From a virus, in IMG/VR virus record IMGVR_UViG_3300031772_000171, positions 1 through 32,492 of that record: a DNA stretch of 32,492 bases. One strand, 5' to 3'. Below are positions 5,213 through 24,545 of this stretch, piece by piece (the stretch's first letter is position 1; each line of letters begins with the position of its first letter). The position numbers were made by a program, and so were the translations under genes. The notes under the pieces are model-generated. The model was not told the origin of the DNA. It was given only the letters and a program-made list of their open reading frames with translations, and searched no databases.

Positions 5213-7810
5213 CTAGATCTGCAACGTGACGCGGATGTAGTTGGCTGGGTACGGAACCAGAATGTCAATGGTCACCAAGACAGTATCGGGCTGATCGGTT
5301 GATTGTTCGAGTGAGACCAGATTGGCGTTCATCAATTGACCGTTTTCAGTAAATTCCCTGAGCAACCCATGAACGACGGTCGACAACATCTCGAGATAAA
5401 TCGTAGTGATATTGTACTTGCCGATGTACGGACGCAACTGATTACGAATGAATTTCGAAACCCAGTCAACGTCCTTAGTGATCGAGAGTTCTCTCTTCTC
5501 GATCAGAGTCACATCCGTCGACAATTGGTGGCGGCAATAACAAGGAGCAGTAGGCGTATCCTGAACGAAGATGTAAGTGCCGCCGGTTGCGATGATATCG
5601 AGCTGACTCGGATTGAAATACTCATTCGAGTGTTCCAGACCAATGAGTCCAGTGACTGGAACATTAGTAAAGGGTTGCTGCGGAGGATAGAAGGTGATCA
5701 TGCCCGATACAATGCATCCCTGATAATAACCGGGCAGATTACCAGTCTTATTGGCTGAAGTCGTGTCAAACGTATCATCGCCGGTTCTATCATCCTCATA
5801 TTCGATCTGGCCGACATCTGGCCAAACATTGAATACACGACGGTTGGAGAAGGCCTTGGAATAATCTGCAATGTATTGGGCCTGTTCGTACTTATCATAG
5901 TCCTTGGTGTCGATCCTCCAGATCAGATCGTGGGAAGAAGAAGTCGGCAAGCCAGGATTGGTTAGTTCGAGCGTAGTGGCATTGTTAACGCGAACGATTC
6001 TGGCCTCGTGCAGAATCACGCCATCGGGATCCAGAATCTTGACAATCATACCGGGAGCGACTTCCTCATTGATGAAATCGCCATCATCAGCATTGAAGGT
6101 CAGAATGTCCGGCACCCAGCCCTCAGTGCCACTGGCTTTGGTTTCATAGATGAAGAGTAACCGGTTGATCATCACAATGCGCTCGTGTTTGTTCTCCTGG
6201 GCTGACTGTTGAGTAACGTGTGCATTCCAGATCTGGTGGATAGCAGGATCCTGGGTCAGAGGAACGATACAGTAAACCTCACGACTCTCGAGGAACTCAG
6301 TAGCCGCAGTCCAATCCTCGACTGAATCATTCTCGATGGCCGTGGCATAAACGATATTGTCCGTGTTTACCAGGGCCATCCAAACACCAAATGCCAGAGG
6401 GTTCTCGGGAACGATCGGTCCTAGTTTGCTGATGACATCATCAACGTTCTGGACGGCAACCAGATCATCAACATTGTCGGTCCTGCGAGCCGTGTAACTG
6501 ACCAAGATATTGCCAGTTGCAAAGTCAGTAGTATCATCAATATGATAGGACACGTTATTGGCATTGGTGAATTTCCGAACAACGCGATAATCCAGACCGG
6601 TCTCTACTCCAGCAAATGCAGGGCTGACAGTCAAAGTATCAGTGCCAACCACCGTAATGCTGTACCCGCCGTAGACCTCTGGGGGTGCCGCTCCATCTTC
6701 CACGACCAGAATATCGCCGACCTTAACACCGAGATCAGAAAAATCTTTGCCGGTGTCGGTGAAAGTAGATCCACTGGTCGCTCCGGTATGTTCGGTATTA
6801 AGTAGAATCTGATTGAGGTTCAACTCAATATCGCTGATGACTTTTTCAATCCGCCAACTTCCAGCGTTAACTCCGGATTCGATTATCAAAGTCATTCCAG
6901 GAGCAACATTGTCACTCAGGAAATCAGCAGCATCATCAGTGAACGTACTGCCATCTCCTGTCACTCTGAACTTTAGACCAGTAGCATTACTGAAACCAGC
7001 AAAACCTTTCTTGGAAGCGATGACTAAATTTGTTTCGTCAGTGACTGCCGCAACACTATAGATCCCTTCGTCTGCACCTTCGAGAATATAAAGGCTCATT
7101 CCCGATTTGATATTGTCTGTAACAAACAGGGAAGTGGCACTCGCGAATACCATCGAACCAGCAACAGTAACGCCATCAGTAGCATCCTCGCGAACAATAC
7201 GGTACAAAATCCCGGATTCGATTGCATTAAAACTAGGGGTCACGGTCATTGTGTGGGTCGAGACCGTAACGATAGTAAATTGCAGACCACTGTCGGTTCC
7301 AGACATAGGAAAGAGCATGTCCCCAGCCCTGAGATTATAGTCGGTGAAATCAACCGTGATATCTCTGAAGGTGTTCATCACGGATCCAGGACCGGTTTCG
7401 CCATTTACCTCATTCAATAGATAGAAGGGTTTGAGACTGGTTGTGGAAGTGGTGACTCCGGTGCCAGATGTCAAAGTCACATTCCTGGTGACAGTAGCAT
7501 TATCATCCACAGTCACGAAACTATCATCAGCAATGTAATCGCTCTTATCGAGCTGGAATGTGCCCCACTTGTTAGTGAGGTAGACTAACACGCCTGACTT
7601 GTCCACTTGTGCATCCAACGGCAGATCAGGGTACGCATAATCTGTCGCTGCGCTGTCGTACGGACCAGCCATTTTCTTGTAGATCACCTGATTGTTGAGT
7701 CCGACGATGCAAGCAGGAAGAGCAGGCGGAATCAGTGTGGGTGATACCTGCTCAAAGACCTGCTGAACAAATACGTCGGGTTTTGGGATCGTGCCAGTCG
7801 TTACGGCCAT
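5213..7810 (-). CDS. Contractile tail sheath protein with repeat insertion
   Basis: The sheath subunit surrounds the tube and contracts on infection. The N-terminus (PKPDVFVQQVFEQVSPTLIP, then ACIVGLNNQVIYKKMAGPYD) is typical of sheath proteins. So is the C-terminal domain: GCIVSGMITFYPPQQPFTNV, DIIATGGTYIFVQDTP, a lysine-arginine TLIEKRELSITKDVDWV segment, NQLRPYIGKYNITTIYLEML and the closing ILVPYPANYIRVTLQI. At 865 aa it is larger than most sheaths (roughly 400-700). The extra length is explained by four consecutive small beta domains at residues 142-412 and a fifth at 568-634. GGAGGAGGAGAC precedes ATG 7810. It is followed 26 nt later by the tail tube. Confidence 0.92.
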   Translation of the reverse strand: MAVTTGTIPKPDVFVQQVFEQVSPTLIPPALPACIVGLNNQVIYKKMAGPYDSAATDYAYPDLPLDAQVDKSGVLVYLTNKWGTFQLDKSDYIADDSFVTVDDNATVTRNVTLTSGTGVTTSTTSLKPFYLLNEVNGETGPGSVMNTFRDITVDFTDYNLRAGDMLFPMSGTDSGLQFTIVTVSTHTMTVTPSFNAIESGILYRIVREDATDGVTVAGSMVFASATSLFVTDNIKSGMSLYILEGADEGIYSVAAVTDETNLVIASKKGFAGFSNATGLKFRVTGDGSTFTDDAADFLSDNVAPGMTLIIESGVNAGSWRIEKVISDIELNLNQILLNTEHTGATSGSTFTDTGKDFSDLGVKVGDILVVEDGAAPPEVYGGYSITVVGTDTLTVSPAFAGVETGLDYRVVRKFTNANNVSYHIDDTTDFATGNILVSYTARRTDNVDDLVAVQNVDDVISKLGPIVPENPLAFGVWMALVNTDNIVYATAIENDSVEDWTAATEFLESREVYCIVPLTQDPAIHQIWNAHVTQQSAQENKHERIVMINRLLFIYETKASGTEGWVPDILTFNADDGDFINEEVAPGMIVKILDPDGVILHEARIVRVNNATTLELTNPGLPTSSSHDLIWRIDTKDYDKYEQAQYIADYSKAFSNRRVFNVWPDVGQIEYEDDRTGDDTFDTTSANKTGNLPGYYQGCIVSGMITFYPPQQPFTNVPVTGLIGLEHSNEYFNPSQLDIIATGGTYIFVQDTPTAPCYCRHQLSTDVTLIEKRELSITKDVDWVSKFIRNQLRPYIGKYNITTIYLEMLSTVVHGLLREFTENGQLMNANLVSLEQSTDQPDTVLVTIDILVPYPANYIRVTLQI
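5909..6109 (-). repeat. Fifth, separated copy of the sheath beta-domain repeat
   Basis: Residues about 568-634 (DILTFNADDGDFINEEVAPG, then GVILHEARIVRVNNATTLEL and LIWRID) match the same pattern as the four upstream units, with a particularly close V-A-P-G-M segment to the third. It is separated from them by about 155 residues of sheath core, so it occupies a different loop of the fold. Confidence 0.6.
6575..7387 (-). repeat. Four tandem beta-domain repeats in the sheath
   Basis: Residues about 142-208, 218-284, 287-340 and 347-412 share the pattern G-S-x-F-x-D...F...V-x-x-G-M-x-L-x-I-x-x-G...Y-x-I-x-x-V...L-x-L, ending in a G-L-x-[YF]-R-V type strand. GSTFTDDAADFLSDNVAPGM and GSTFTDTGKDFSDLGVKVGD show the relation best. 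The repeats have diverged, so this is protein-level repetition, not recent DNA duplication. They probably decorate the sheath exterior. Confidence 0.75.
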
Positions 7811-9681: not shown

Positions 9682-9683
9682 GA

Positions 9684-11894: not shown

Positions 11895-12349
11895 TACCAT
11901 CTCCCCAGATTGATCTGACTGTACTCACTGTAGACGTTGCCCCAGCAAGCAGCTAGGTTGATAGCCATCTTAAGGGCGAGTTTTTTCTTTTCATAATCAA
12001 CATAGATCATGTTTAGCCAACCAATGTATTCAGCAGCTTGATCACTAACGCGAACAGCGATACCACCATCATTGTAATCCAACTTATTGCGACTGTACAA
12101 GATTCCGGCACTTGTTAGGACTTGAATAACCGCGCCTCTTAATAGAAGATTGGGAGATGGAAAATTGGAATAATCAACAATGTACAATGGCGGAGGAGTA
12201 TTATTCCAATCATCCATCGCCATATCCAATGCTAATTCCAACTGATTATCCGAAGACTCCTTCCGATCGAGAAGCCTGTTGAGTTCATCAATGTCACGTA
12301 GGAACTTACGTAGCATTCCTACGTATTGTTGCTTCGTGTAGGAAGCCAC
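11894..12349 (-). CDS. Putative head-tail connector protein
   Basis: 151 aa, first gene after the capsid and linker genes, a common place for the adaptor that stacks on the portal. It is largely helical: YVGMLRKFLRDIDELNRLLD, then ELALDMAMDDWNNTPPPLYI, then LLLRGAVIQVLTSAGILYSR and a C-terminal helix KKKLALKMAINLAACWGNVY. The N-P-P-P segment and the helical arrangement resemble connector proteins, but no conserved signature is decisive. It starts with GTG 12349, just after the preceding stop, with AAGGGC upstream. Confidence in the gene is high; confidence in the role is low. Confidence 0.6.
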   Translation of the reverse strand: MASYTKQQYVGMLRKFLRDIDELNRLLDRKESSDNQLELALDMAMDDWNNTPPPLYIVDYSNFPSPNLLLRGAVIQVLTSAGILYSRNKLDYNDGGIAVRVSDQAAEYIGWLNMIYVDYEKKKLALKMAINLAACWGNVYSEYSQINLGRW

Positions 12350-12352
12350 ATG

Positions 12353-12904
12353 TTAGCCCTTCAGGGTTTGCGACTCCAGAATCTTATTGACCATCTCATT
12401 CCGGTTGCGCTTATCAACCTGCATGCCTTTGACTAGTCCCTTGAGTTGGGCTTTATTCATGGCTTCTAGTTGTTCACGAGTATAGATTGTTTTAACTTCT
12501 GGTACTGGTGCAGCGCTAACTGGTTCAGGCGCTGGCGCAGGTGCTGGTACAGATACGGGTACAGGTTTTGGTTCATCGAGTTTAATTGGCTTTGCGGGAT
12601 CTGGGGCTTTGACATCAGCCGGTGTAACCATTGTATCGTGTGATGGCACATTAGGAACGCTCTCTTCCTTCTCGGGCACAGGTTTCTCCTTTTTTTCAAA
12701 CACTGCAGGTTTCACCATCGAGGCAACAGGGGCGGGATTGATTTCTTCGATCTTGCTGACTTCAATACCTTTGGCATGCATTAATCGACGATCCGCATCG
12801 GTAATTTGGCCCTCGTTAATAATGCACTGTTGTCCTTTGGACAAGAAACTGAAAGAAAAACCAAGATTAGTATTACTGGTGTTTCGAACTCGCACTTTTG
12901 CCAC
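12353..12904 (-). CDS. Proline-rich linker protein with C-terminal SAP/HeH-like domain
   Basis: 183 aa. The N-terminal 60 residues form a small beta-looking domain (FSFSFLSKGQQCIINEGQIT). A long Pro/Ala/Glu/Val-rich linker follows at about residues 60-140 (KKEKPVPEKEESVPNVPSHD, VSVPAPAPAPEPVSAAPVPE). The last 40 residues, TREQLEAMNKAQLKGLVKGM followed by NRNEMVNKILES, match the two-helix SAP/HeH/Rho-N type fold, which often binds DNA or tethers partners. Such proteins commonly lie just after the capsid gene in phages. The start has AAGGAAG upstream, between two intergenic hairpins and the coding region. A head-surface or neck attachment role is inferred. Confidence 0.72.
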   Translation of the reverse strand: MAKVRVRNTSNTNLGFSFSFLSKGQQCIINEGQITDADRRLMHAKGIEVSKIEEINPAPVASMVKPAVFEKKEKPVPEKEESVPNVPSHDTMVTPADVKAPDPAKPIKLDEPKPVPVSVPAPAPAPEPVSAAPVPEVKTIYTREQLEAMNKAQLKGLVKGMQVDKRNRNEMVNKILESQTLKG

Positions 12905-12918
12905 GAAGCACTTCCTTT

Positions 12919-12982
12919 CTCTAAGTCCCCAATCTTAGAGTAAGGGGAAAGGGTTGGTTTTTTAGGACCAACCCCTTTCCCC
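12919..12982 (-). other. Two consecutive hairpins after the capsid gene
   Basis: GGGGAAAGGGTTGGT (12944-12958) pairs with ACCAACCCCTTTCCCC (12967-12982), leaving a single bulged base. A second stem follows in the transcript: CTCTAAG (12919-12925) with CTTAGAG (12934-12940). Neither is followed by a U-tract on the minus strand. The likely role is partial attenuation or stabilisation of the abundant capsid mRNA relative to downstream genes. Confidence 0.72.
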
Positions 12983-12996
12983 CTTGCTCACTACCT

Positions 12997-13896
12997 TCAG
13001 CTGCCCTTCGACAGAGCGATTTTGCAGCAGCCGTTGACGTTACCGATGCCCATCCCAACGTCTTCCCAAGCCTGCCAGCTGATCATGTTGGCACGCTTGT
13101 CAATCCAGAACTTGGTCTGGTTGAGCAGGAAGAAGTTGCCCAAGAATTGCGGCTCCGCAAAGCCGTAGATGGTCCCTTCGGGCACAACACCATTCTTGAT
13201 CGAGGTCACCAGTTTGTAGCCAAGAATCGACTGGTAGCGGTACCCGTCGACAGTGATCTCAGCAGCAATCTTGCCGCCGACATCCTTGGCCTGGAAGGCG
13301 AGGACGTCAGCGAAGTCGATCTCGTGCATCAAGATCGTCCCCAGTCTGATTTCCTTGCCCGGGAGCAGCTTGGCCAGCTGACTGAGCGCAACGCGAGTGA
13401 CAGTGGTGTCAGTCACAATAGCGCTCAAACCAGAAACGCCAATCGCTGACTCGATGTACTGGAGGAACCTCAGGTCTTCGATCTTCTGGATGTCCTTGAC
13501 ACTGTTCTCTTCGATGACCCTGGTGATAGGCATCTCGTAAGCCAGCAGTTCCTGCTCCGTTTTCTCGAATTTCTCCGAGGAAATGGTGCTGAACGGGATC
13601 GTGTAACGCTTGCCTTCGACGTACCTGCCGTCGGGCTCCGAGCGCCAGTTGATCGCCATTGCCTTGCTGTCAGGCTCGATGTCTATGATCTTGACCAGTC
13701 CATCGTGATCCTCTGAGCGCTGGCAGTCCGCCTTGGTGACGCTCACGGGTGGGAGGATCTTGCGGGCGAAGCTAACTTCACGTAGCTTCTGTCTGATGAA
13801 AGCACCAGCAGCCTCAGCGAGCTTAGGTAGCTCCTGAGGATCGCTCACAGCCTGAGAGAAGAGGCTGTTGATGGTTGCCGCATCGACTTCGTTCAT
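12997..13896 (-). CDS. Major capsid protein (HK97-fold type)
   Basis: 299 aa, the usual size for a compact HK97-fold shell subunit. The sequence has a helical N-terminal arm (LFSQAVSDPQELPKLAEAAG, AFIRQKLREVSFARKILPP), a long E-loop-like stretch and a spine helix (IEENSVKDIQKIEDLRFLQY). A C-terminal P/A-domain half follows (YRYQSILGYKLVTSIKNGVV, FFLLNQTKFWIDKRANMISW, VGMGIGNVNGCCKIALSKGS). The gene sits after scaffold-like and decoration-like genes and is followed by strong hairpins. AAAGGAGATTAGAAA precedes ATG 13896. Residues 22-27 read E-L-P-K-L-A, matching the short peptide found in other head proteins, so the first roughly 27 residues could be a cleaved propeptide; that is inference. Confidence 0.85.
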   Translation of the reverse strand: MNEVDAATINSLFSQAVSDPQELPKLAEAAGAFIRQKLREVSFARKILPPVSVTKADCQRSEDHDGLVKIIDIEPDSKAMAINWRSEPDGRYVEGKRYTIPFSTISSEKFEKTEQELLAYEMPITRVIEENSVKDIQKIEDLRFLQYIESAIGVSGLSAIVTDTTVTRVALSQLAKLLPGKEIRLGTILMHEIDFADVLAFQAKDVGGKIAAEITVDGYRYQSILGYKLVTSIKNGVVPEGTIYGFAEPQFLGNFFLLNQTKFWIDKRANMISWQAWEDVGMGIGNVNGCCKIALSKGS

Positions 13897-13927
13897 TTTC
13901 TAATCTCCTTTCCTTCCTCAGTGCTCG

Positions 13928-14407
13928 CTAAAGCATTCTGGCGTGCAGAGCGTAGCCCGAGACACCGACGAAGTACAAGAGACCGTCGGCAAGAGCTATT
14001 GGCGCCTTCGCGTAGGCGTAAACTGCATCGTGATGCTTAGCAACAGCCAACTTACCACTGTACACGGTCAACTGCGAACCAGCAACGGGAGAACCGTTGT
14101 AGTTGACATCGTACCCGTTGGATGTCACGTTTCCTTCGATGGTGCCAATCAGGCCGGTCATGCCACCGCTCGAGACTGAAGTCCCATCGGGTAGTGTACC
14201 TGTCACGTCTGGGGCGATTGAGTCATTGAACGCCAAGAAACGCGGGATCGAGGTCTTGGTTGTCGCCGAGCCAATGACGGCATTCCCATTGACGTCCAGC
14301 TCGAACCACTGTCCGTTACGAATGGTCTGGGACTGCGCAATCGGTACAGACTTACGGAAGACCATTTCGAGCGGGCTAGTGATGTTGAGGTTTACCTGCT
14401 TAGCCAT
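13928..14407 (-). CDS. Putative capsid decoration (cement) protein
   Basis: 159 aa, immediately upstream of the major capsid gene, the usual site for a decoration protein. It is beta-rich and Gly/Ser/Thr-rich with no long helix: NGQWFELDVNGNAVIGSATT, then TVSSGGMTG-like turns (GTSVSSGGMTGLIGTIEGNV), then SQLTVYSGKLAVAKHHDAVY and LADGLLYFVGVSGYALHARM. This pattern resembles small beta-barrel cement proteins that bind the capsid surface. AGGAGTGAGAGCG precedes ATG 14407. It has no E-L-x-K peptide, fitting an external protein added after prohead cleavage. A head-fibre base is an alternative. Confidence 0.62.
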   Translation of the reverse strand: MAKQVNLNITSPLEMVFRKSVPIAQSQTIRNGQWFELDVNGNAVIGSATTKTSIPRFLAFNDSIAPDVTGTLPDGTSVSSGGMTGLIGTIEGNVTSNGYDVNYNGSPVAGSQLTVYSGKLAVAKHHDAVYAYAKAPIALADGLLYFVGVSGYALHARML

Positions 14408-14423
14408 TCGCTCTCACTCCTGT

Positions 14424-14777
14424 TCATCTTGTGCCGAGCAGATAGGAAACCAAGGGATCCGCTTCCGATGAGAACGAATCACCCTTGATATGCCCTACCT
14501 TCTCGACGTCCTGTTTCCTGAGGAGCTCCTCAACCTGGGTTCCGTCGAGGTTGCATACCTCGCCGAATTTTTCCAGGGCATCCCCAGGATCCGTTTCGCC
14601 ATCGACCACCATCTGCAACACTACTTTTGCAGATTCGAGCTGCTTACTGAGGTTCTGTGCGAAGCTGGCGGTCTTCTCCAGTCCCTCTAATTTAGTGCGC
14701 AGCGTCTTATTGTCCGCCTCTAGCTGCTTGATGGCTTGAGCAGCCTTGGCCATTAAGATTCTGTCCTTGGGGTCCAT
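14424..14777 (-). CDS. Scaffold-like coiled-coil head protein, 117 aa
   Basis: I chose ATG 14777 because GGGAGG lies about 6 nt upstream; a longer frame from 14822 overlaps the preceding gene. The N-terminal half is a heptad-rich helix (KDRILMAKAAQAIKQLEADN, KTLRTKLEGLEKTASFAQNL). It continues with ESAKVVLQMVVDGETDPGDA and a short tail ending SYLLGTR. LEKTAS at residues 33-38 matches the recurrent head-operon peptide. Its position just before decoration and capsid genes and its coiled-coil character suggest a scaffold or core component. It is short for a full scaffolding protein, so the role is uncertain. Confidence 0.65.
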   Translation of the reverse strand: MDPKDRILMAKAAQAIKQLEADNKTLRTKLEGLEKTASFAQNLSKQLESAKVVLQMVVDGETDPGDALEKFGEVCNLDGTQVEELLRKQDVEKVGHIKGDSFSSEADPLVSYLLGTR

Positions 14778-14790
14778 GTTGCCTCCCACA

Positions 14791-15237
14791 TTAATTCGTC
14801 TGGGTTGCAGGCCCAGGGACATTACTACCCTGTGCAGTTCCGTCCTTCAGTCTTTTGAACAAAGTCCGATTCTTATCAGTTTTGAGTTTTTCGATCACCC
14901 GGACCCCAGTACCTTCAGTTATTTCACCGATAGTACCAGGTTCACGCATTTCATTAGCGGCACCACCACTAATCTGCGCCTCCTTGATGATCGAATCGGA
15001 GAGCTTTTCGAGGGAGGATTTAGCCTGAGGATCACCGATGGCATCCAGAATCACAGCCATAGCCAACTTATGAAAACGCTCTGGATTTGATGGTTCAGCA
15101 TTAAGTTTCGCTGAAACTTCGAGCGCTTCGGCAAGTTTGGCATATTGACTTGGTTCATCGGTTTTCACCTCTTTAGGCTCAGTCTTTTTAGACTCATTAA
15201 GTGCAGCCTCAAGAAGCTCATCCACTGTGAAGCTCAT
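14791..15237 (-). CDS. Charged helical head-operon protein, 148 aa
   Basis: Not recognised by name. It starts MSFTVDELLEAALNESKK and is rich in Lys, Glu and Ala. Helices carry YAKLAEALEVSAKLNAEPSN and SSLEKLSDSIIKEAQI, of which LEKLSD fits the shared E-K-[LT]-[AS] theme. The C-terminal third is basic and disordered-looking (VIEKLKTDKNRTLFKRLKDG, ending PGPATQTN). The ATG overlaps the end of the preceding gene by 4 nt (ATGA). Charge pattern and location between the protease and the capsid gene are consistent with a scaffold or core protein; this is inference. Confidence 0.68.
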   Translation of the reverse strand: MSFTVDELLEAALNESKKTEPKEVKTDEPSQYAKLAEALEVSAKLNAEPSNPERFHKLAMAVILDAIGDPQAKSSLEKLSDSIIKEAQISGGAANEMREPGTIGEITEGTGVRVIEKLKTDKNRTLFKRLKDGTAQGSNVPGPATQTN

Positions 15238-15455
15238 GATTTGGTCCCCTTCATTTCCTGCGCTCTCTGGCGAGCCATTTCTACTAATCCAATAACTTTA
15301 TTGGCGTTCTCCTCTTGTTCTTTAACCTGCCGTTCATATTTTCTTTTATCGATCAATTTCTGCAATTTCGAACCAGCTCCGAAACTAAAGGCGCCAACAC
15401 CGACTGGGATACCAGTCCGCATTAATTTCCTGGCTAGTTCGGACTTGGCAGCCAT
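15234..15455 (-). CDS. Small membrane-type protein, 73 aa
   Basis: Not recognised. A basic N-terminus (AAKSELARKLMRTG) is followed by a short hydrophobic glycine-rich stretch (IPVGVGAFSFGAGS). A basic amphipathic helix follows (KLQKLIDKRKYERQVKEQEE, then NKVIGLVEMARQRAQEMKG). GGAGG lies 8 nt before ATG 15455. It is separated from the upstream acidic gene by a perfect 12-bp hairpin. The composition matches other small glycine-zipper proteins of the head operon, though the hydrophobic segment is short for a full membrane span. Confidence 0.68.
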   Translation of the reverse strand: MAAKSELARKLMRTGIPVGVGAFSFGAGSKLQKLIDKRKYERQVKEQEENANKVIGLVEMARQRAQEMKGTKS

Positions 15456-15475
15456 GTCTCGCGCCTCCGAGGGAG

Positions 15476-15507
15476 GTCCCGGGCCCGTCGATTCTCGGGC
15501 CCGGGAC
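15476..15507 (-). other. Perfect 12-bp GC-rich intercistronic hairpin
   Basis: GTCCCGGGCCCG (15476-15487) and CGGGCCCGGGAC (15496-15507) pair without mismatch around an 8-nt loop. No U-tract follows on the transcript. It fills the 63-nt gap between the acidic protein gene and the 73-aa gene. It is probably an RNA-processing, stability or polymerase-pausing element. Confidence 0.85.
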
Positions 15508-15518
15508 GCCTCATTCCT

Positions 15519-15953
15519 CTACTCCTCTTCCTTTACGGCCGCAGCGAGCTTCTCAGAAAGACTCTTGGGAGTCTCTTCCTCCACCACAGTCTCTTCCTCG
15601 CTAGTAGTAGCGATCTTGGCCAGCTCGTCGGCCATAGCACGAGCCATCAGACGACCAGCTGCCTCAATCTCCTCGGCAGCAGTCTTTTCCTGAGCCTCGT
15701 ACTCGGCGTATTCGTCGATGATCTGCGCAGCAGCAGCCAGCTTAAACAGATCATGATCGAATTCCAGGCCCTCGTCCGTGAATGCCGAGACAACCTGTGC
15801 AACCTTCTCGGCATCCTCTTCGCTTAGCGCCTCGATGGCCTTATCGAGGGCGGCGTCAGCGGCTTCCTTGGTCATTCCCTCGCCCTCGGCCTCAACCTCG
15901 GCCTCGGCCTCAGGGGAACCAAACCGCTCGTTGTACAGTTCAGCAAGGCTCAT
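15519..15953 (-). CDS. Acidic head protein, paralogue of the 168-aa neighbour
   Basis: 144 aa and strongly acidic (PEAEAEVEAEGEG near residues 14-26, SEEETVVEEE near 118-127). Residues 100-116 read GRLMARAMADELAKIAT, closely matching GRFMARGFLDELQKLGS of the gene just upstream, so the two are probably diverged duplicates. It also holds EKTA (89-92) and SEKLAAAV, all variants of the short peptide shared by head proteins. AAAGGAGGAAGCGA precedes ATG 15953. There is no membrane segment. Acidic, helical proteins encoded between protease and capsid are often scaffold or prohead-core components; that reading is inferred. Confidence 0.72.
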   Translation of the reverse strand: MSLAELYNERFGSPEAEAEVEAEGEGMTKEAADAALDKAIEALSEEDAEKVAQVVSAFTDEGLEFDHDLFKLAAAAQIIDEYAEYEAQEKTAAEEIEAAGRLMARAMADELAKIATTSEEETVVEEETPKSLSEKLAAAVKEEE

Positions 15954-15977
15954 TCGCTTCCTCCTTTGCTGACGCCG

Positions 15978-16484
15978 TTAGGCGTTTGTCTCGGTCGCGG
16001 GTGCTGGAGTGGGTTTGACCTTACGAGCGGTCGCGATGATTTTCTTCACGACGCTCTGCATTGCCACGTCCTTGGTGGGGGTATCGGGGCGATGTTTGGC
16101 TTCAATCGCCGCCTTAACCTTAGCCAGCACCTTTGAACCTTCCTGAGGTGTAGAAGCATCAGCTTGCTGCTGAACTTTCTTCCCACCGCCCATTTCCCAA
16201 TCAGAGCCCAGTTTCTGGAGCTCGTCGAGGAAGCCACGAGCCATGAAACGACCGAGAACAGTGGCTTCCTCAGCCAGTTTCTCAGCTTCGGCATGCTTCT
16301 CGCTTTCCTCCACCTCCGAGATAACTTTCGCTGCCTCTTCAGGAGTCAAATTCAACTCCTTGGCAACCTGAGCGACAACATCATCATCATCGCCACCATC
16401 AACAGCAGCTGCCGCTTTCTCGGTTTCGGAAGGAGCGCTGGTGTCCTCGAGCATTTGCGCGAGGATTTCACTTACTGTCGGCAT
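15978..16484 (-). CDS. Acidic head protein with D-E-L-Q-K-L-G motif, 168 aa
   Basis: 168 aa. The N-terminal half is acidic and alanine rich (SETEKAAAAVDGGDDDDVVA, then NLTPEEAAKVISEVEESEKH). Residues 78-93, GRFMARGFLDELQKLG, form the clearest internal copy of the shared peptide, and EAEKLAEEA precedes it. The C-terminal third is basic (KVKAAIEAKHRPDTPTKDVA, KKIIATARKVKPTPAPATET). The switch from acidic to basic halves is unusual. It lies directly after the protease gene in transcription order and is paralogous to the next gene. GGGAGACGAAGG precedes ATG 16484. A prohead scaffold or core role is plausible. Confidence 0.72.
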   Translation of the reverse strand: MPTVSEILAQMLEDTSAPSETEKAAAAVDGGDDDDVVAQVAKELNLTPEEAAKVISEVEESEKHAEAEKLAEEATVLGRFMARGFLDELQKLGSDWEMGGGKKVQQQADASTPQEGSKVLAKVKAAIEAKHRPDTPTKDVAMQSVVKKIIATARKVKPTPAPATETNA

Positions 16485-16502
16485 CCTTCGTCTCCCTTCC
16501 TG

Positions 16503-19367
16503 CTAGACAAATTTTCGCGCACCAGCGTACGCCCCAATGGCTCCTGCAGAACCAAGAAGTCCTGGATGCTTTTCAGCGAACGTTTGCGCGACATTTTTGC
16601 TTTTCCCGCTACGCTGCAAGTGAGCAGAATAGAGGTATGGAGCAAAAAGGCCTGCACCCGCCAGGGCCGCTCGATGAATTGCACCTGATTCCTTAGTCAT
16701 GCCGAGCATAGCATTGAACATCTCCTCTGACGAAGCGGTGCGCCCCTCCGGTAGAAGATGTGCATGCTTCACTATGGTACTACGCGAAACTGATTCGTCC
16801 CAACCCATTAGACTTTGACGGTACTGCTGATAGACCATGACATTTGTCATGGTTTTATCGGAAGCCGTCTTCGCTGTTTGACGACTACCTAATTCAGCAG
16901 CCCGTCTAGTTATCCAAGGAGCCAAAGCCGATCTTTCTGTCAAGAATGGTAGCAGTAACTCAATAGCTGCTGTCTTAATGGCCCCTTCGTCCACTATTGG
17001 CCGTATGTTCTGGGCTGGTTCGCCACGCCTGATCTTGATGATGATGATCCTCGTGACTTCATTAGGTTTCGCAACCATGCCTAGACCGGCCATGGATGAC
17101 AAGATCTGATGCAGAGGGAAATCACTAAGCCTCTCAAGAGTCTCGCGAGGCAGATCCTTTTCAGTCGATGAAATGAGGCGTGCTCTGTCGCTGAGACTCT
17201 TGAGTTGTTTAATCTTCGCCCTGTCTGCACCATCACTAAGATCCTGTGAACTCATTATTGCGGGAACCTCTTTTTTAATCTCACCTTCCTTTCTTTCGAA
17301 CGCAAGTTTGGCTTGCGCAACCTTGACTCTCTCGGCGATGACAGCACTAGGAATGCTGCAATGATTCAAGGTGTAAGCTCCACACCCAGTATCATCATCG
17401 CCTAGAAGAGTCTTTGAAGCTGTTGTTGCTGATGCCAATTTCATCAGCGTCATCGCTATTTTATCAGCAGGAATTAGCACTCTGGAAATATCAAAGAATC
17501 TAGGCATCGTATTAACCGCATAGACTTTATGTCCGTTAGACCATGTCTCATTCATGGCCGTCTTAAGATGTTCACAATATTCATCAACTTTTTTGGATCT
17601 GTGATGACAAACACTGCAAGAATCAAACGGAACTTTACAATTATGAACAGCAACATCATTTACTATATAGGAATTATCGCCCTTAACTTCGAAATTGTAG
17701 ACATAACCACTATAGATCTGTCGGGTAATACTCTTAATTTGGCGATAGATTGATCCATTGAAATTTCCAATATGCCTAGTTACTGAATTAGCGCGGACAA
17801 AAGGTCGAACATCAGAATATTCCAAAAGTTGATTAGCGCTCTCAGGATCGATCATCAATGCATACTTTTGTTTGTGCCCTAGACGATATCCGGTCCTCAT
17901 CGAGGGCCAATTGGTGCACAATCTGTTGGCTATTCCACAACTGTTGGCCAGAGCATGCATTTGCTCAGCCAAATCTTTGGAACAAGTATAAACTTGAATC
18001 TGTTCTGCCAGAGAGGCATCCCCATTCAGATAAGCTCCGATCAATTCCATCTTGAGGTGACGTGGCCACTGCATGATGGAGGAATGAATCCTCTTCTGAT
18101 CGGAGTATTCCCCACAATATTTGTAGAAGATCGGGGCAACTTTATGGTTATAGGCCCGCACTTCGGAACAAGTGCCATGTTTCTCACCATAGCTATTGTA
18201 GATCTTGGCGTTCGTGTCAAACTCAGATTTGAAGAGATCTACGCACTCCTGCACATAACTTTCACCGGCTGCAAAGGACAGAACTGTCGCACTGTGCTTT
18301 CCCTTATGTTTTAAGTAGCTGCCTTCAGCCAGGAAATAACCAAAAAGCCAGGCGATCCCAGGAGTAACCCAAGAAGGCGCTTTGCCCTGCGATGCAGGAG
18401 TGAGTAGAAAATCTCCAGGAGCCAATTCTTTAGCATCAGTAAACTTGAATGGCATAGTTGGTATTTTAGGAAGTTGTGAATAATTCTCACGAATACAATT
18501 ATGATTATCTCCACGTAGTTTATTGTGATGTCCAATTTTGAATCTGTTTTTGGTTGGAATTGCGAAACTGTACTTACCAGCAATAGATGTTTCTAACTTC
18601 TCTCCACACCCACATCGACAATAACGATCTAGTTCGCTAGCCCAGAAAGGATGCTCAGGAGTGGCAATGATTTTATTCTCCACTCCAAAGACTTCTATCT
18701 CATAAACTTCGCCATCATACCAACGACGTTGTGTATTGAGTACATTACCAATATTGCCAAGATGAGTTATTACTTCGTTCCCTGGAATTATATTCGAAAT
18801 CTTAATGCGTCGACCATCTGCCATCTGGACTATAGCGTCTTCAGTAAAACAGCCCATAGACCAGATAACGGATCCATTCTTGTCAATGTCATTAACAATA
18901 TCTGGTGCCTTCGCACGATCAGCTGCCAGAATCAAAAGAATGCGATGCATTTCCTTGTCATAAATTGGCAAATCAACCTTACCAAAAGAATTGGCTGGAT
19001 CTTTATTGACGTGATGTTTAAAAATGTGCGCCGATAAGAAGGTCTTATAGCGCGGGAGGGGGACTCCGGTGTAGGGTGACGGGTTCCTACCAGCTTCCAT
19101 TGGGGTCTGGATGCCGAGGAGATCCTTCTCGAAGAAGGCGTCACCGTTTACGTTACTACCCCAGAAATCCGCCGCTCCCAGCGCTACTATGAGTAAGTAA
19201 AGGAACTGTGGATCTGGCTCAAGACGTTCGAGGTAGTCTTTGACTTCGGGAGGTAACGTTCCGGCAGTCTTCTGGAAAACAGCTGCGCTCATCCTGGTTA
19301 GAATGCGAGTGTTCGGCTCGCCGAAGCGGTCGAACGCAGGAATCTCGAGCAGCTTGTCCATTGACAT
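16503..19367 (-). CDS. Prohead maturation protease interrupted by an intein
   Basis: Precursor of 954 aa; after splicing the extein would be about 550 aa. The extein N-part has GSNVNGDAFFEKDLLG (residues 70-85), then AHIFKHHVNKDPANSFGKVD with His118/His119, and ends with GSVIWSMG (165-172). In S78/U35-type prohead proteases a His near N-K-D...G and a Ser in S-[IM]-G form the active site, so Ser170 is the predicted nucleophile. The C-part resumes CKVPFDSCSVCHHR...DEYCEHL (Cys577, 584, 587, 598), a zinc-knuckle-like cluster I associate with large-phage head proteases. A long helical C-terminal region follows, ending in a glycine-rich LGSAGAIGAYAGARKF, possibly scaffold-like. QKTAG at 32-36 may be an autocleavage site (inference). 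Alternative: another head protein with this active-site-like fold. Confidence 0.8.
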   Translation of the reverse strand: MSMDKLLEIPAFDRFGEPNTRILTRMSAAVFQKTAGTLPPEVKDYLERLEPDPQFLYLLIVALGAADFWGSNVNGDAFFEKDLLGIQTPMEAGRNPSPYTGVPLPRYKTFLSAHIFKHHVNKDPANSFGKVDLPIYDKEMHRILLILAADRAKAPDIVNDIDKNGSVIWSMGCFTEDAIVQMADGRRIKISNIIPGNEVITHLGNIGNVLNTQRRWYDGEVYEIEVFGVENKIIATPEHPFWASELDRYCRCGCGEKLETSIAGKYSFAIPTKNRFKIGHHNKLRGDNHNCIRENYSQLPKIPTMPFKFTDAKELAPGDFLLTPASQGKAPSWVTPGIAWLFGYFLAEGSYLKHKGKHSATVLSFAAGESYVQECVDLFKSEFDTNAKIYNSYGEKHGTCSEVRAYNHKVAPIFYKYCGEYSDQKRIHSSIMQWPRHLKMELIGAYLNGDASLAEQIQVYTCSKDLAEQMHALANSCGIANRLCTNWPSMRTGYRLGHKQKYALMIDPESANQLLEYSDVRPFVRANSVTRHIGNFNGSIYRQIKSITRQIYSGYVYNFEVKGDNSYIVNDVAVHNCKVPFDSCSVCHHRSKKVDEYCEHLKTAMNETWSNGHKVYAVNTMPRFFDISRVLIPADKIAMTLMKLASATTASKTLLGDDDTGCGAYTLNHCSIPSAVIAERVKVAQAKLAFERKEGEIKKEVPAIMSSQDLSDGADRAKIKQLKSLSDRARLISSTEKDLPRETLERLSDFPLHQILSSMAGLGMVAKPNEVTRIIIIKIRRGEPAQNIRPIVDEGAIKTAAIELLLPFLTERSALAPWITRRAAELGSRQTAKTASDKTMTNVMVYQQYRQSLMGWDESVSRSTIVKHAHLLPEGRTASSEEMFNAMLGMTKESGAIHRAALAGAGLFAPYLYSAHLQRSGKSKNVAQTFAEKHPGLLGSAGAIGAYAGARKFV
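17640..18851 (-). mobile_element. Large intein with LAGLIDADG homing endonuclease
   Basis: Residues 173-576 of the protease precursor, 404 aa. Splicing block A is CFTEDAIVQMADGRRIKI with Cys173 first. Block B is IIATPEHPFWA. Blocks F and G are GYVYNFEVKGDNSYIVNDV and AVHN, ending His-Asn576. The +1 extein residue is Cys577. Two LAGLIDADG helices are present, WLFGYFLAEGSY (acidic Glu348) and LIGAYLNGDAS (Asp450), both with the metal-binding acid kept, so the endonuclease may be active. A CRCGCG cluster (249-254) with KIGHHN resembles a small zinc element between splicing and nuclease parts. All splicing residues are intact, so efficient protein splicing is expected. Confidence 0.96.
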
Positions 19368-19370
19368 CAG

Positions 19371-19913
19371 TTAGTCTTTCGATGCTCTTCCTGCAGCCAC
19401 GCCACCAGCACCAGCAGCTGCCGTACCGCCCATGCCGATCAGAGCAGCTTTCTCGGCTGCTGACATGGTACCCCAGGCTTTGCCGATGGTGCCTTTGCCT
19501 TTGGTAGCAATGCCTCCCCACATCTTCTTCAGGGAGCTACCAAAGGGCGAGAACATTGACTTTGCAACAGCCGCAGCTTTCTCGGTCTCAGGAGCGCTTT
19601 TCTTACTAGCGCGACCCAGACCGAAACCACCTGCACCAGCTACGCCAGCAGCAGTTGCGCCAGCAGCTACAGGATGCTTCTTCACGAAGGCTTTCCCGGC
19701 CGCCCCCCAGCCTTTAACTTTCCCGCTGACTTTTTTGCCAACATCTTTGGCTTTGGCCACAGCGGCTTTGCCGACTTTCTTGCCCTTGGCCAGAGCACTT
19801 TTGCCAGCCTTTTTCGCGGCGGCAATCATGCCCTTTGCACTGACAGCGTCTTTTTCGAGGTCCTCGTCAGTGCAGGTCTCAATGTACGCCTTTGTAAACT
19901 CCTGCAGGTTCAT
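19371..19913 (-). CDS. Lys/Ala-rich protein with two glycine-zipper helices, 180 aa
   Basis: Function unknown. It begins MNLQEFTKAYIETCTDEDLE, related in layout to the MNLQQF start of the 155-aa protein at 22473-22940. A very basic, alanine-rich stretch follows (AAKKAGKSALAKGKKVGKAA), histone- or DNA-binding-like, with K-x-G-K-K repeats. Two hydrophobic Gly/Ala helices follow: AAGATAAGVAGAGGFGLGRA and LIGMGGTAAAGAGGVAAGRA, each ending in a basic Arg-Ala-Ser-Lys cap. ETEKAA between them fits the shared head peptide. GGAGG precedes ATG 19913. I infer a capsid-internal, possibly DNA-associated and ejected protein. Confidence 0.72.
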   Translation of the reverse strand: MNLQEFTKAYIETCTDEDLEKDAVSAKGMIAAAKKAGKSALAKGKKVGKAAVAKAKDVGKKVSGKVKGWGAAGKAFVKKHPVAAGATAAGVAGAGGFGLGRASKKSAPETEKAAAVAKSMFSPFGSSLKKMWGGIATKGKGTIGKAWGTMSAAEKAALIGMGGTAAAGAGGVAAGRASKD

Positions 19914-19929
19914 CTTCTGCCTCCTTCAA

Positions 19930-19976
19930 CCGGGCCTCTGTGGGCCCTCCATTATGACCGAGGCGCACAGGCCCGG
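19930..19976 (-). other. GC-rich intercistronic hairpin
   Basis: CCGGGCCT (19930-19937) pairs with AGGCCCGG (19969-19976) around a 31-nt loop in the 77-nt gap between two head genes. There is no U-tract. It is similar in kind to the 15476-15507 hairpin and may regulate mRNA stability. Confidence 0.65.
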
Positions 19977-19990
19977 TCGAACCTTCATCT

Positions 19991-20365
19991 TCAGTCGATC
20001 CTCTGTCTGGCTGCATCTATCCTTCTGTTCACCTTAATGGTGTCTGGATCCCAGGGTTGCTTGAGGCCAGGTTTGGGCAAAGCGGCTGCCCTAGCTGCAT
20101 TGGCTTTCGCGTAATTTGTTAGCCAAGCAGGATTGGTTTTAACGGCATTCGTAGCAATTGTTTTTGTTCCTTTACTAAATAGACCAGTTAGTTTGCCACC
20201 AATGTTTTTAGCAAAATCACCAATGCCCGCTTTCTTCAGCAACTCTTCATCATAACCTAACTTAACGAGCTCATCAATAAAGGCATCTGCGAAGATCTGT
20301 TCAGCAGTCTTCTCGAGCTCGACGATCTTGGTGCGTTCAGCTAGCTTTTCGAGCAGTGAGCTCAT
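19991..20365 (-). CDS. Head-operon protein with repeated E-L-x-K motifs, 124 aa
   Basis: Not recognised by family. The N-terminus contains three copies of the shared peptide: LLEKLAERT (4-12), ELEKTAEQ (16-23) and AFIDELVKLGYD (28-39), then ELLKKAGIG. The sequence QIFADAFIDELVKLG resembles the motif region of the acidic paralogues at 15519-16484. The C-terminal 75 residues are basic and Ala/Pro-rich (LFSKGTKTIATNAVKTNPAW, AKANAARAAALPKPGLKQPW). ATG 20365 has AGAGGATAGAC upstream and overlaps the preceding gene by 29 nt. It is a probable capsid-internal protein. Confidence 0.7.
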   Translation of the reverse strand: MSSLLEKLAERTKIVELEKTAEQIFADAFIDELVKLGYDEELLKKAGIGDFAKNIGGKLTGLFSKGTKTIATNAVKTNPAWLTNYAKANAARAAALPKPGLKQPWDPDTIKVNRRIDAARQRID

Positions 20366-20708
20366 GTCTATCCTCTCCCCACAAGAAGTTCGTGGTCACT
20401 ATTTCCTCGTATTTCATCGGATAATCCTGGGATTCAATTAACTCCCCAGGTTTAGCCAGGCGGTATGGATCAGCCAGGTTTTGCTTTAATGTAGCATATA
20501 GATTTTCTTCAGAAGTCTTAGGGGCTACTTTGATGACCTGGTTCTTGGTTCTTATCTTAATCTTGGTTGGGATTGAAAGCAGGCATTTGATCAATTGGAC
20601 GATCACCTTGGTGTCGCCTTGGATGCGTATCTGTCCGCCTTCCAATGTCACATCAGCAGCCTTAACAGGCTTACTGGCAAGACGGTCACGTACCACTACT
20701 AAATTCAT
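20337..20708 (-). CDS. Small alpha/beta phage protein, 123 aa
   Basis: Not recognised. ATG 20708 overlaps the upstream stop (TGATG), indicating coupling. The N-terminal 65 residues look like a compact beta domain (VTLEGGQIRIQGDTKVIVQL, LSIPTKIKIRTKNQVIKVAP). A helical stretch follows (ENLYATLKQNLADPYRLAKP), then a C-terminus with YEEIVTTNFLWGEDRHEL. No membrane segment is present and no clear E-L-x-K peptide, which sets it apart from its neighbours in the head cluster. It may be an assembly accessory or a head protein added by another route. Confidence 0.68.
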   Translation of the reverse strand: MNLVVVRDRLASKPVKAADVTLEGGQIRIQGDTKVIVQLIKCLLSIPTKIKIRTKNQVIKVAPKTSEENLYATLKQNLADPYRLAKPGELIESQDYPMKYEEIVTTNFLWGEDRHELTARKAS

Positions 20709-21541
20709 CAACCTAATCCTGCTATTGTTGCCCAGTCTTGGACCCCAGCTACTTGAGGCTTTAGGCCTCTCGGGAACACGGTTCGATCCTGGACATTCTT
20801 GATATGTCCACCCTCCATAGCAATCATCTGTTGGAGACTTTGCGGATCAACATGGCCCCATTGCTGCATCTTCTTGAGCATTGCTTCTGCAACAGGTTTA
20901 TTAGTTGCTACGGTTTCTGGAGCATAGCGAAGTAGAAGATTGAAGTTTTCAATGGTCTTGGGATCTTTCTTGAGCTCGGGATTTTCCTTCAAGATTTCGG
21001 CAAGGATTGTTTTGGATTGCGTGCCATGTCTAATCCTTGATACTCCTTCCGAGATAGGATGAGTAACCATCTGTAGACCCTGACCAGCACTATGGACTAG
21101 CGATAAACCCAGAGCAGCCAAGACAGCAGCTGCAGCAGCTGGCGGAATGATTTTCTTGAGAGGGCCAGGGATTCTGCTCCAAATTCTATTGAACCCACTT
21201 ATTTCTCTTAGTTTTGATACATCCCCAGGTCTAGGTGTAGGTACTAAAGGTGCCCCAGCTGTCTTTTCAAAGTTGATCCAATCCAAGGCGGTCTGTACGG
21301 TATCTTCGTCGTATTGCTGTATTGCTTTCTCAATGAGTTGGCTCTCTATAATAATGGCCATTTCGGCTAGTTTCTCAATTTCTTGTTCACTACAACTTTC
21401 AAAAGTTTCAGCAACAAAGGCGACTGTACGCTTATGACCACACTCCATAGCATTAAGAAGCCCAGCACGAATTTCAGACAGTTTGGACATCTCCTCGCTG
21501 GAGATCTTCTTGTTCAGGTAAAGATCTTGTATGAGGCTCAT
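20708..21541 (-). CDS. Head-operon protein with a membrane helix, 277 aa
   Basis: Function unknown. The N-terminal 95 residues are helical and acidic and include EQEIEKLAEM (52-61) and WINFEKTAGAP (88-98), both matching the shared head peptide. A hydrophobic alanine-rich helix follows (IIPPAAAAAVLAALGLSLVH). Then come SAGQGLQMVTHPISEGVSRI and a C-terminal helical region (ENPELKKDPKTIENFNLLLR) ending in PQVAGVQDWATIAGLG. GAGGATCAGTAAC precedes ATG 21541. The combination of a possible cleavage peptide, a membrane-type helix and a soluble tail suggests a virion protein active in DNA ejection, by inference. Confidence 0.72.
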   Translation of the reverse strand: MSLIQDLYLNKKISSEEMSKLSEIRAGLLNAMECGHKRTVAFVAETFESCSEQEIEKLAEMAIIIESQLIEKAIQQYDEDTVQTALDWINFEKTAGAPLVPTPRPGDVSKLREISGFNRIWSRIPGPLKKIIPPAAAAAVLAALGLSLVHSAGQGLQMVTHPISEGVSRIRHGTQSKTILAEILKENPELKKDPKTIENFNLLLRYAPETVATNKPVAEAMLKKMQQWGHVDPQSLQQMIAMEGGHIKNVQDRTVFPRGLKPQVAGVQDWATIAGLG

Positions 21542-21567
21542 GTTACTGATCCTCGTTTCTCAACTGA

Positions 21568-21807
21568 TTACTCGTAACCTTCGTCATCATCTGGATCAGC
21601 ACGGAAGGCGGCACCATCTCTGGGCTGTTTCACCTCTTCCGTCTTCTTAGGTGCAGGAGAGGGAGTGCCGCCAGGAGGGACTGGCGAAGCACCAGCAGCC
21701 GTTGCCTTAGGTTTGCCAGCGCCTTCCCCTTTCGCTGAATCGGCAGTGTATCCACTGATCTTTGTCAGTTCTGCCTTGAACCCATCAAACATCGCTGTCA
21801 TCTTCAT
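21568..21807 (-). CDS. Short protein with an N-terminal E-L-T-K-I-S motif, 79 aa
   Basis: Not recognised. The N-terminus MFDGFKAELTKISGYTADSA (from residue 6) is a clear copy of the shared head peptide. The rest is low complexity, Pro/Ala/Gly/Lys-rich (GAGKPKATAAGASPVPPGGT, PSPAPKKTEEVKQPRDGAAF) and ends with an acidic PDDDEGYE. Thus only the motif looks ordered, as if the protein were a tagged disordered cargo or scaffold tail. GAGGAGAGGGCC precedes ATG 21807. The gene is small but has a strong start and fits the tight spacing of the operon. Confidence 0.7.
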   Translation of the reverse strand: MKMTAMFDGFKAELTKISGYTADSAKGEGAGKPKATAAGASPVPPGGTPSPAPKKTEEVKQPRDGAAFRADPDDDEGYE

Positions 21808-21817
21808 GGCCCTCTCC

Positions 21818-22465
21818 TCAGAACTGTGGGTAACCAGTAAACTGTTGTTTCTTCTTGTGTTTCGCGTCTAAGTAAGCAGCGGTTCCTAAAAGACCGGCGC
21901 CACCTAAAGCAGTACCACCAATCATGAGACGTTTATTGCGAATATGTTTGGCTTCCTCATCTATCATGTTTTGACGTTCAGTTGCTTCTTGTCGGGCTTG
22001 TCGCTCAGGATTATAAGCAATCATTTTACGATGTTCAGCTTTACGATGTTCAGCCTTTAATTTTTCCGTCGTTTCTCTCTCTACGCTTTTGGCTTCGCTG
22101 CCCAATCCTATTGCATAACCTTTTCCGAGTCTCTCCTTGGCTCGCAAGATATGACTCTTAATCTTTCTTTCAAATTGTCTTCCCTTGCGATGAAGCGCTC
22201 CTGCTGCATATCCAGTGGCACCAGAGACTCCTGCAGGATGTTCGGTTTTTCTGGCTGGGATGGGGCCGGAACGAATAGGAGTCCATTTGTTAATTCCTAA
22301 TCTTTTTTTAGCCTCTTGTTCTGCAGCTTCATATATTGGATTTGGTTTCTTGGCAAGTTGACTGGGCTTAAGATGTTGAATGCCACGAATAATCCTGCCT
22401 GCTGGACCAGAAATTTTCTCTAACTCTCCAGAAAAAGATGTCCAAAAAATCTCATTATCGTTCAT
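21818..22465 (-). CDS. Basic head protein with E-L-E-K-I-S motif and membrane helix, 215 aa
   Basis: I chose ATG 22465 because GTGAGGACGCA precedes it. A longer frame from 22585 overlaps the neighbouring gene and is not needed. The N-terminus FWTSFSGELEKISGPAGR (7-24) holds the best copy of the shared peptide. The body is very basic (IPARKTEHPAGVSGATGYAA, then KLKAEHRKAEHRKMIAYNPE with a repeated AEHRK). A glycine-zipper helix near the C-terminus, LMIGGTALGGAGLLGTAAYL, precedes DAKHKKKQQ. Motif, basic body and C-terminal membrane-type helix form the archetype seen in several neighbours. The role is unknown; capsid-internal cargo is inferred. Confidence 0.73.
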   Translation of the reverse strand: MNDNEIFWTSFSGELEKISGPAGRIIRGIQHLKPSQLAKKPNPIYEAAEQEAKKRLGINKWTPIRSGPIPARKTEHPAGVSGATGYAAGALHRKGRQFERKIKSHILRAKERLGKGYAIGLGSEAKSVERETTEKLKAEHRKAEHRKMIAYNPERQARQEATERQNMIDEEAKHIRNKRLMIGGTALGGAGLLGTAAYLDAKHKKKQQFTGYPQF

Positions 22466-22472
22466 TGCGTCC

Positions 22473-22940
22473 TCACACAAGCAACCGACTTGGATCTTGG
22501 TAAATCTGCGCCGAACGTTGAGGCGTATTATATATGGGTCCGTGATAGGTTGGTTTCCTATATTGCTCTTGACCCTTACGCACACCAGCTATTACGCCTA
22601 CAGGAGCTGCTGCCATCATTAATGGCTTGGTTGCGCTTAATTCTCGAACATCATGTTTTTTAGCTAAACGATTTAAAAGCTTTGCATCTGGCGGCATTGC
22701 TCCTCTAGACATCCTGGATACAAGAGCCCGATCATATGGATCCATATTTTTAGCCCTACCCAATATTTTCTTTGCAACTTCTTTAGAATTTTTGCTATCC
22801 ACCCGCATAGGTCTGGTTACCGTCCAACGAGCAAGACCTTCACCGCCCTCTACCGCTTTCTTAGCAGAGTGCCATATGCCCTTTATCCAGGGCTCAGCAC
22901 TCAGCTTCACCATCTCACGAGCAAATTGCTGCAAGTTCAT
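22473..22940 (-). CDS. Head protein with F-A-R-E-M-V-K-L-S motif, 155 aa
   Basis: The N-terminus MNLQQFAREMVKLSAEPWIK carries a variant of the shared peptide and resembles the start of the 180-aa protein at 19371-19913. The middle is basic (VDSKNSKEVAKKILGRAKNM, ALVSRMSRGAMPPDAKLLNR). A short hydrophobic segment (PLMMAAAPVGVIAGVRKG) is followed by a Tyr/Pro/Gln-rich tail ending QDPSRLLV. TGAGGGGTAG precedes ATG 22940. No enzymatic signature is present. It belongs by layout to the group of motif plus basic body plus small hydrophobic helix proteins. Confidence 0.72.
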   Translation of the reverse strand: MNLQQFAREMVKLSAEPWIKGIWHSAKKAVEGGEGLARWTVTRPMRVDSKNSKEVAKKILGRAKNMDPYDRALVSRMSRGAMPPDAKLLNRLAKKHDVRELSATKPLMMAAAPVGVIAGVRKGQEQYRKPTYHGPIYNTPQRSAQIYQDPSRLLV

Positions 22941-24465: not shown

Positions 24466-24476
24466 CTCAACAACCC

Positions 24477-24489
24477 CCACAGCTTGTGG
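24477..24489 (-). promoter_or_regulatory. Small dyad CCACAAGCTGTGG between promoter and first gene
   Basis: CCACA-AGC-TGTGG on the minus strand is a 5-bp inverted repeat placed about 25 nt downstream of the expected transcription start. It could be an operator half-site pair or a short leader hairpin. It is short enough to arise by chance. Confidence 0.3.
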
Positions 24490-24516
24490 AATTAGCCTAC
24501 ATCTACACAAGCACTT

Positions 24517-24545
24517 ATTATAATTCGTCATCAAAGTGCTGTCAA
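24517..24545 (-). promoter_or_regulatory. Perfect consensus sigma70-type promoter
   Basis: On the minus strand TTGACA (24545-24540) is followed by exactly 17 nt and TATAAT (24522-24517), matching the bacterial housekeeping consensus at all twelve positions with optimal spacing. It points into the HNH gene and the roughly 20-kb head-tail operon, with transcription expected to begin near 24510. Such a strong host-type promoter before structural genes implies that host RNA polymerase transcribes them, unless a phage factor represses it early. Confidence 0.88.

Follow-up and report, generated by a model that had tools for sequence, protein, structure and literature searches.

Does an intein lodged beside the presumed catalytic serine of a phage head maturation protease time the maturation of the capsid, or does it exploit a conserved site? 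The question is raised by a virus contig of 32,492 bases (IMG/VR record IMGVR_UViG_3300031772_000171; "the window" hereafter means that entire contig), in which one open reading frame (ORF), read on the minus strand, encodes a precursor interrupted by an intein. From sequence comparisons and structure models, we consider it very likely that the element is a homing intein in the active-site strand of a head maturation protease, and that splicing would have to precede protease activity.

The precursor gene and its intein

The presence of a complete intein in the ORF at 16503-19367 is confirmed, far beyond chance. Its parts and the landmarks of the flanking exteins are listed below in the order of the protein. 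Conservation refers either to the nine carriers of same-site inteins named in the next section or to alignment A3 (14 rows), which, like alignment A2 (18 rows), holds a subset of the loci with near-copies excluded; L033 and L036, whose match coordinates gave stops, and L030 and L032, dropped without need, are absent from both.

16503..19367, minus strand: precursor gene, predicted head maturation protease plus intein, 954 amino acids; open ORF, coordinates exact
18852..19367, minus strand: N-extein, residues 1-172, ending in Ser170-Met171-Gly172, from the alignment with intein-free L050
19011..19013, minus strand: His119, candidate catalytic histidine, invariant in A3
18858..18860, minus strand: Ser170, candidate catalytic serine, invariant in A3, paired with the Ser-Val-Gly of HK97 gp4
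17640..18851, minus strand: intein, residues 173-576, splicing domain plus LAGLIDADG endonuclease
18849..18851, minus strand: Cys173, intein residue 1, kept in 9/9 carriers
18651..18662, minus strand: block B, Thr236-Pro-Glu-His239, Thr and His in 9/9 carriers
18324..18326, minus strand: Glu348, first LAGLIDADG acid, 9/9 carriers
18018..18020, minus strand: Asp450, second LAGLIDADG acid, 9/9 carriers
17640..17645, minus strand: His575-Asn576, intein C-terminus, Asn in 9/9 carriers, His replaced by Arg or Lys in 4/9
17637..17639, minus strand: Cys577, +1 nucleophile of the C-extein, Cys in 9/9 carriers
16506..17639, minus strand: C-extein, residues 577-954
17568..17618, minus strand: C584-x-x-C587 ... 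Y-C598-x-H600, metal-site-like insertion, not in HK97 gp4
17466..17498, minus strand: F-F-D-I-S-x-V-x-x-P-A strand, paired with R-E-I-S-V-C-T-F-P-A of HK97

The insert measures 404 amino acids and leaves an extein of 550 after joining. Its LAGLIDADG-like stretches are precursor residues 341-349 and 442-450, and it closes with V-A-V-H-N at residue 576, directly before Cys577. Taken together, Cys1, the block B Thr and His, the His-Asn end and Cys+1 presumably define a class 1 splicing scheme. Cys1, both block B residues, both endonuclease acids and the final Asn are invariant among the carriers; the four in which the penultimate His is replaced are L003, L004, L138 and L146. The precursor matches Pfam Intein_splicing (5.9e-9, slightly above the family cut-off) and LAGLIDADG_3 (1.4e-4, at the cut-off), as well as NCBIfam intein_Cterm (0.0062, above the cut-off) and intein_Nterm (0.0082, below it). 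Among PDB sequences it finds PI-PkoII (0.0082) and one unrelated chain, and nothing else. GC content at third codon positions is 0.38 in the intein, 0.55 in the N-extein and 0.43 in the C-extein.

An AlphaFold model of the precursor built on A3 has a mean predicted local distance difference test score (pLDDT) of 57.6; in the intein the values of ten-residue blocks range from 33 to 88 and are lowest at 251-300. Residues 171-576 of this model match solved inteins, namely TliVMA (7qsu, best Z 26.9), PI-PkoII (2cw7, Z 25.9) and PI-SceI (1vde, Z 21.3), and residues 334-519 match I-DmoI (Z 16.6), the endonuclease being inserted in the Hint fold. These three inteins likewise combine a splicing domain with an inserted two-motif endonuclease, at 16-21% identity to the window intein, but the latter sits in a predicted phage head protease. 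Residues, Pfam matches and fold thus bear out the complete splicing blocks, the 404-residue insert and the two LAGLIDADG acids that an earlier note had read from the letters of this DNA. The note had also placed the intein two residues after the serine, and correctly so: it starts three residues past Ser170, with Met171 and Gly172 between them, and Ser170 aligns with the serine of the HK97 gp4 Ser-Val-Gly.

Splicing of this kind proceeds by an acyl shift at Cys1, transfer to the +1 residue, here Cys577, and cyclisation of Asn. It would join Ser-Met-Gly to Cys-Lys-Val through a Gly172-Cys577 bond, and the host protein would survive because the intein splices itself out. Since the strand bearing Ser170 is interrupted in the precursor, the unspliced protein would be inactive; splicing would arm the protease, and each active molecule would have to splice first. 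For its own part, the endonuclease would cut the empty site in other phages and be copied in, and in this way may spread the element among phages infecting one cell. An active-site strand that is conserved offers a lasting target, and no regulatory benefit would be needed to account for the choice of site.

Empty sites, recurrence and probable mobility

The nearest relative found, L050, has no intein, and its DNA runs on through Ser-Met-Gly-Cys-Lys-Val. Its extein is 54% identical to that of the window over the full length and 65% over residues 1-240. With tblastn, L050 returns two pieces of the precursor, 3-173 and 577-951, joined at one common Cys codon; since the site is empty, both intein boundaries are fixed, and the comparison with intein-less homologues suggested by the earlier note has indeed defined the insertion point. 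The 16.7-kb L050 locus matches 15 of 29 tested window genes in conserved order (major head protein, 71%), and in both the protease gene lies upstream of the major head protein gene. An empty site within this common gene order means that the intein is dispensable in that genetic setting. Another locus, L002, has matches to 19 window genes, all at 100% protein identity except one at 98%, and is uninformative on the intein because its sequence starts within the C-extein (residue 839). When the window extein was scanned against genome contigs, 36 stretches fitted the pattern and none was confirmed as a relative.

Same-site inteins are carried by nine members of the family: the window, L003, L004, L005, L081, L118, L138, L146 and Eggerthella phage LE2-3. 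The LE2-3 protein, LE23_71, belongs to the same protease family and has its intein at the serine loop, after Ser-Met-Gly-Leu-Asn, two residues later than in the window and the other carriers according to a gapless alignment. This gene (L008:7800-10913) is annotated as a tRNA synthetase and is in fact an intein-bearing protease. No intein occupies the site in any of the 76 other IMG/VR contigs read (106 loci), nor in the 13 named phages examined (Arash, D69, D181, G, E3, Pupper, Y3, Phrappuccino, Colt, JA13, BcepSaruman, GR11A and Tunturi_5). Uninterrupted homologues with a continuous extein include L050, L051, Arash and D69, and relatives from Mycobacterium, among the matches listed (196 records in total), cross the site as a single unbroken piece. 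The loci were sampled by pattern searches seeded with few sequences, so that these counts come from a search-biased sample and are not frequencies. One candidate, a "truncated" family row at L056, was a false match of a loose pattern to a different protein. In the intein-free contigs the +1 residue is Ala in 43/76 and Cys in 33/76. An alanine at +1 could not sustain splicing and would close such alleles to the intein; Ala+1 is possibly an intein-resistant allele.

Whether the element moves can be judged from the extein and intein sequences. In an extein tree with 22 rows, five of them carriers, four changes of intein state are needed, the starred branches force at least three, and the intein label is not more clustered than in shuffles (163/500 equally low). 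Moreover, L118 and L138 have protease domains that are 83% identical and inteins that are just 34% identical; this contrast suggests mobility, either as replacement of one intein by another or as separate arrivals at one site. The patchy distribution on the extein tree, the L118/L138 pair and the two endonuclease acids intact in 9/9 carriers all speak against a vertically inherited intein that has ceased to home and is retained since precise loss is rare. Such an element would account for the correlation between intein and extein identity among the nine carriers (Mantel r 0.77, p 0.0016), and we nonetheless regard it as unlikely.

The inteins themselves leave room for a lineage specific to this site. 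In a tree of five protease-site and seven other inteins the former were not grouped (three changes). A 10-row intein tree did not group them either, but a single protease-site clade was not rejected there (p-AU, approximately unbiased test, 0.43), and with nine protease-site inteins set against five from other phage genes the two sets were split by one branch, whose support of 86/92 is not strong. Neither the portal mini-intein of L004 nor the partial intein of PTm1 entered the last two trees, and the terminase inteins of cr131 and cr7, whose frames break in translation table 11, entered no intein tree. On these sequences a site-specific lineage of protease-site inteins is possible, even favoured.

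Such a lineage, together with the correlated divergence of intein and extein, is also what one might expect if the intein were now a useful switch, whose slow or condition-dependent splicing keeps the protease off until proheads are assembled. The insertion site touches the presumed catalytic serine, and nine divergent carriers have kept their core splicing residues as well as the two endonuclease acids. However, intact acids and the choice of a conserved site are predicted by homing alone. The nearest relative has an empty site within a common gene context, as have all 76 other IMG/VR contigs read; the -3 residue is Ser170, not a Cys capable of a redox lock; and no feature favouring regulation was seen in the sequence. 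We therefore hold a switch to be rather improbable, and give equally little credence to its wider form, in which a site-specific intein lineage, found next to the catalytic serine in the procapsid proteases of very divergent phages, acts as a safety catch: the protease would be produced as a dead precursor and armed by splicing alone, at a rate tuned to prohead assembly. The proposal of the earlier note that splicing times proteolysis survives in a weak sense, namely that splicing would come first; as regulation it finds no support, the nearest relative being intein-free and no regulatory feature having been seen. The element recurs at the site in other phages, but the nearest relative found has none, so that it resembles a parasite in a good position more than an established timer of capsid maturation.

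The interrupted protein

The joined extein matches the PHROG family phrog_18299 (head maturation protease) at 3e-10, as do 7/7 members of alignment A1, and six of the 14 A3 rows match NCBIfam NF045541 (prohead protease/major capsid protein fusion), the best at 1.4e-4. Spliced exteins give weak matches only, to unrelated families, in Pfam and likewise with a PDB sequence profile. A profile of 22 family members, of which the program retained 21, was aligned with a profile of eight HK97-type proteases. The alignment scored 43.0 (probability 78.7), and 30 column shuffles reached at most 17.6. It places Ser-Met-Gly on the Ser-Val-Gly of HK97 gp4, the serine of which we take to be catalytic, pairs the two His residues, and sets F-F-D-I-S-x-V-x-x-P-A against the E-I-S strand of HK97. 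The S78 order of His, Ser-x-Gly and then E-x-S-x-V-x-x-P-A is thus kept in the extein family. Across the wider family the serine motif varies, reading Ser-Lys-Gly in Y3 and JA13. HK97 gp4, which is a member of Pfam S78, lacks both the intein and the C-x-x-C...Y-C-x-H insertion that in the extein family separates the serine strand from the E-I-S strand; from its residues, this insertion may be a metal site.

Annotation and, tentatively, structure point in the same direction. A low-confidence model of the intein-free L050 protein finds T4 gp21 (5jbl) first in the PDB, with Z 6.3 and 3.7 A over 136 residues at 11% identity; the next match has Z 4.1, and herpesvirus proteases follow at Z 2.4-3.1. 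A common serine/histidine mechanism is described for phage prohead proteases and the herpesvirus protease in PMC7411985. In BFVD an uncharacterised phage protein ranks first (7.6e-13); next come gp19 of phage G (1.4e-3), which itself belongs to the extein family, and several low-scoring prohead proteases. The relatives in Rhodococcus phage E3 and Gordonia phage Pupper carry the annotation prohead or capsid maturation protease, and the one in Erwinia phage Y3 that of head maturation protease; those of mycobacteriophages, among the matches listed, are annotated as hypothetical. On profile and model comparison, the extein is a distant head maturation protease of the HK97/T4 type, for which Ser-dependent cleavage is predicted. 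The prohead-protease-like character asserted by the earlier note is upheld by the phrog_18299 match, the HK97 alignment and the T4 gp21 fold match, and its S78 assignment holds at the profile level but not at that of the Pfam family.

Several results weigh against a homing intein in a protease of this type. PF04586 (Pfam S78) is unmatched by 7/7 members of A1 and by 7/7 proteins of a further scan (Arash being in both), although the positive control HK97 gp4 matched at 4.9e-30. The L050 model is poor (pLDDT 46.2), and its Z of 6.3 is within the range reached by models without clear relatives. The Mantel correlation fits long co-residence as well as mobility, and the inactivity of the precursor is predicted solely from the position of the intein. 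Some other phage structural protein, sharing Ser-Met-Gly by chance, would accommodate the missing S78 match, the low-confidence model and the additional cysteine/histidine motif, but is highly improbable in view of the phrog_18299 and NF045541 matches, the three motifs paired with HK97, T4 gp21 as top fold match, the gene position upstream of the major head protein and the annotated E3 and Pupper relatives.

Some family members came to light in unexpected settings. In L003:9827-16717 (2296 amino acids with intein) and L004:9842-16912 (2356 amino acids with intein) a very long protein starts with the protease domain, which is also N-terminal in a 1379-residue protein without intein in L026:5983-10122; these are perhaps protease-scaffold fusions. 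The middle of phrog_27806, named DNA methyltransferase, matches the protease domain, and the match of phrog_36001 to the window precursor, at 170-245, spans the intein start; the entries may therefore be misnamed or contain intein sequence.

Genome context and relation to known inteins

The remaining features of the window are as follows.

12997..13896, minus strand: major head protein (phrog_2522, 4.8e-15), downstream of the protease in the same direction of transcription
5213..7810, minus strand: tail sheath (phrog_279, 5.1e-7)
23893-24603, minus strand: free-standing HNH endonuclease (HNH_3, 4.1e-10), upstream in the head gene block
24-743, plus strand: weaker HNH-like ORF at the window start (phrog_20891, 1.1e-4)
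8461-8799, 15519-15953, 15978-16484, 19991-20365, 21568-21807, 21818-22585 and 22473-22940, minus strand: proteins with F-x(0-3)-[DE]-[LMI]-x-K

The two HNH ORFs represent further mobile elements in this phage. In the window no Rfam match reached the gathering score and no tRNA was found. The F-x(0-3)-[DE]-[LMI]-x-K motif occurs in 7/28 window proteins (8461-22940, minus strand), often near their N-termini. Over the 28 proteins E-K-x-A was counted 18 times against 3.7 expected, K-L-A 14 against 3.65 and K-T-A 12 against 3.15, these counts being the best of many patterns and uncorrected. Such recurring short motifs might act in head targeting or as recognition sites for the protease. In L004, a protein upstream of the protease (6506-9301, plus strand), portal-like in our reading of its sequence and position, holds a 149-residue mini-intein without endonuclease, reading CFTPESLV...VVHN and then Ser; together with the protease intein, this makes two interrupted head genes in one phage.

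Active-site inteins, and phage inteins within functional motifs, are already known (PMC5050341). The terminase and portal inteins of mycobacteriophages described there likewise lie within functional motifs, both of DNA-packaging genes and of other phage genes, but portions of its Table 1 name no protease among the hosts, unlike the window; 11 inteins are listed in a C1 "hypothetical protein". Hosts named in the literature covered include terminase, ribonucleotide reductase, helicase, DNA polymerase, PhoH, deoxycytidine triphosphate (dCTP) deaminase, portal and minor head protein (PMC3185647, PMC6132909, PMC3868849, PMC12363816, PMC5050341, PMC7411985, PMC3322345, PMC6892783, PMC6293099, PMC7468147, PMC3556154). 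The phage dCTP deaminase intein, which its authors aligned with the LAGLIDADG intein 2CW8, self-excises in E. coli according to PMC6293099. Prohead protease genes of Jug phages are described as fragmented and/or divergent, with no intein named in that part of PMC12363816. In the portions of the open-access literature covered, subscription papers being outside the search, no earlier report of a prohead-protease intein was found.

With the window, a virion-maturation protease would join the phage enzymes that carry an intein in the active site, and the site has been used repeatedly. The protease belongs to a branch of phage head proteases that has been little described and has a metal-site-like insertion; among the matches listed, many members of this branch are annotated as no more than hypothetical. 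Finally, the natural pairs formed by the window with L050 and by L118 with L138 allow one to ask whether splicing delays capsid maturation.

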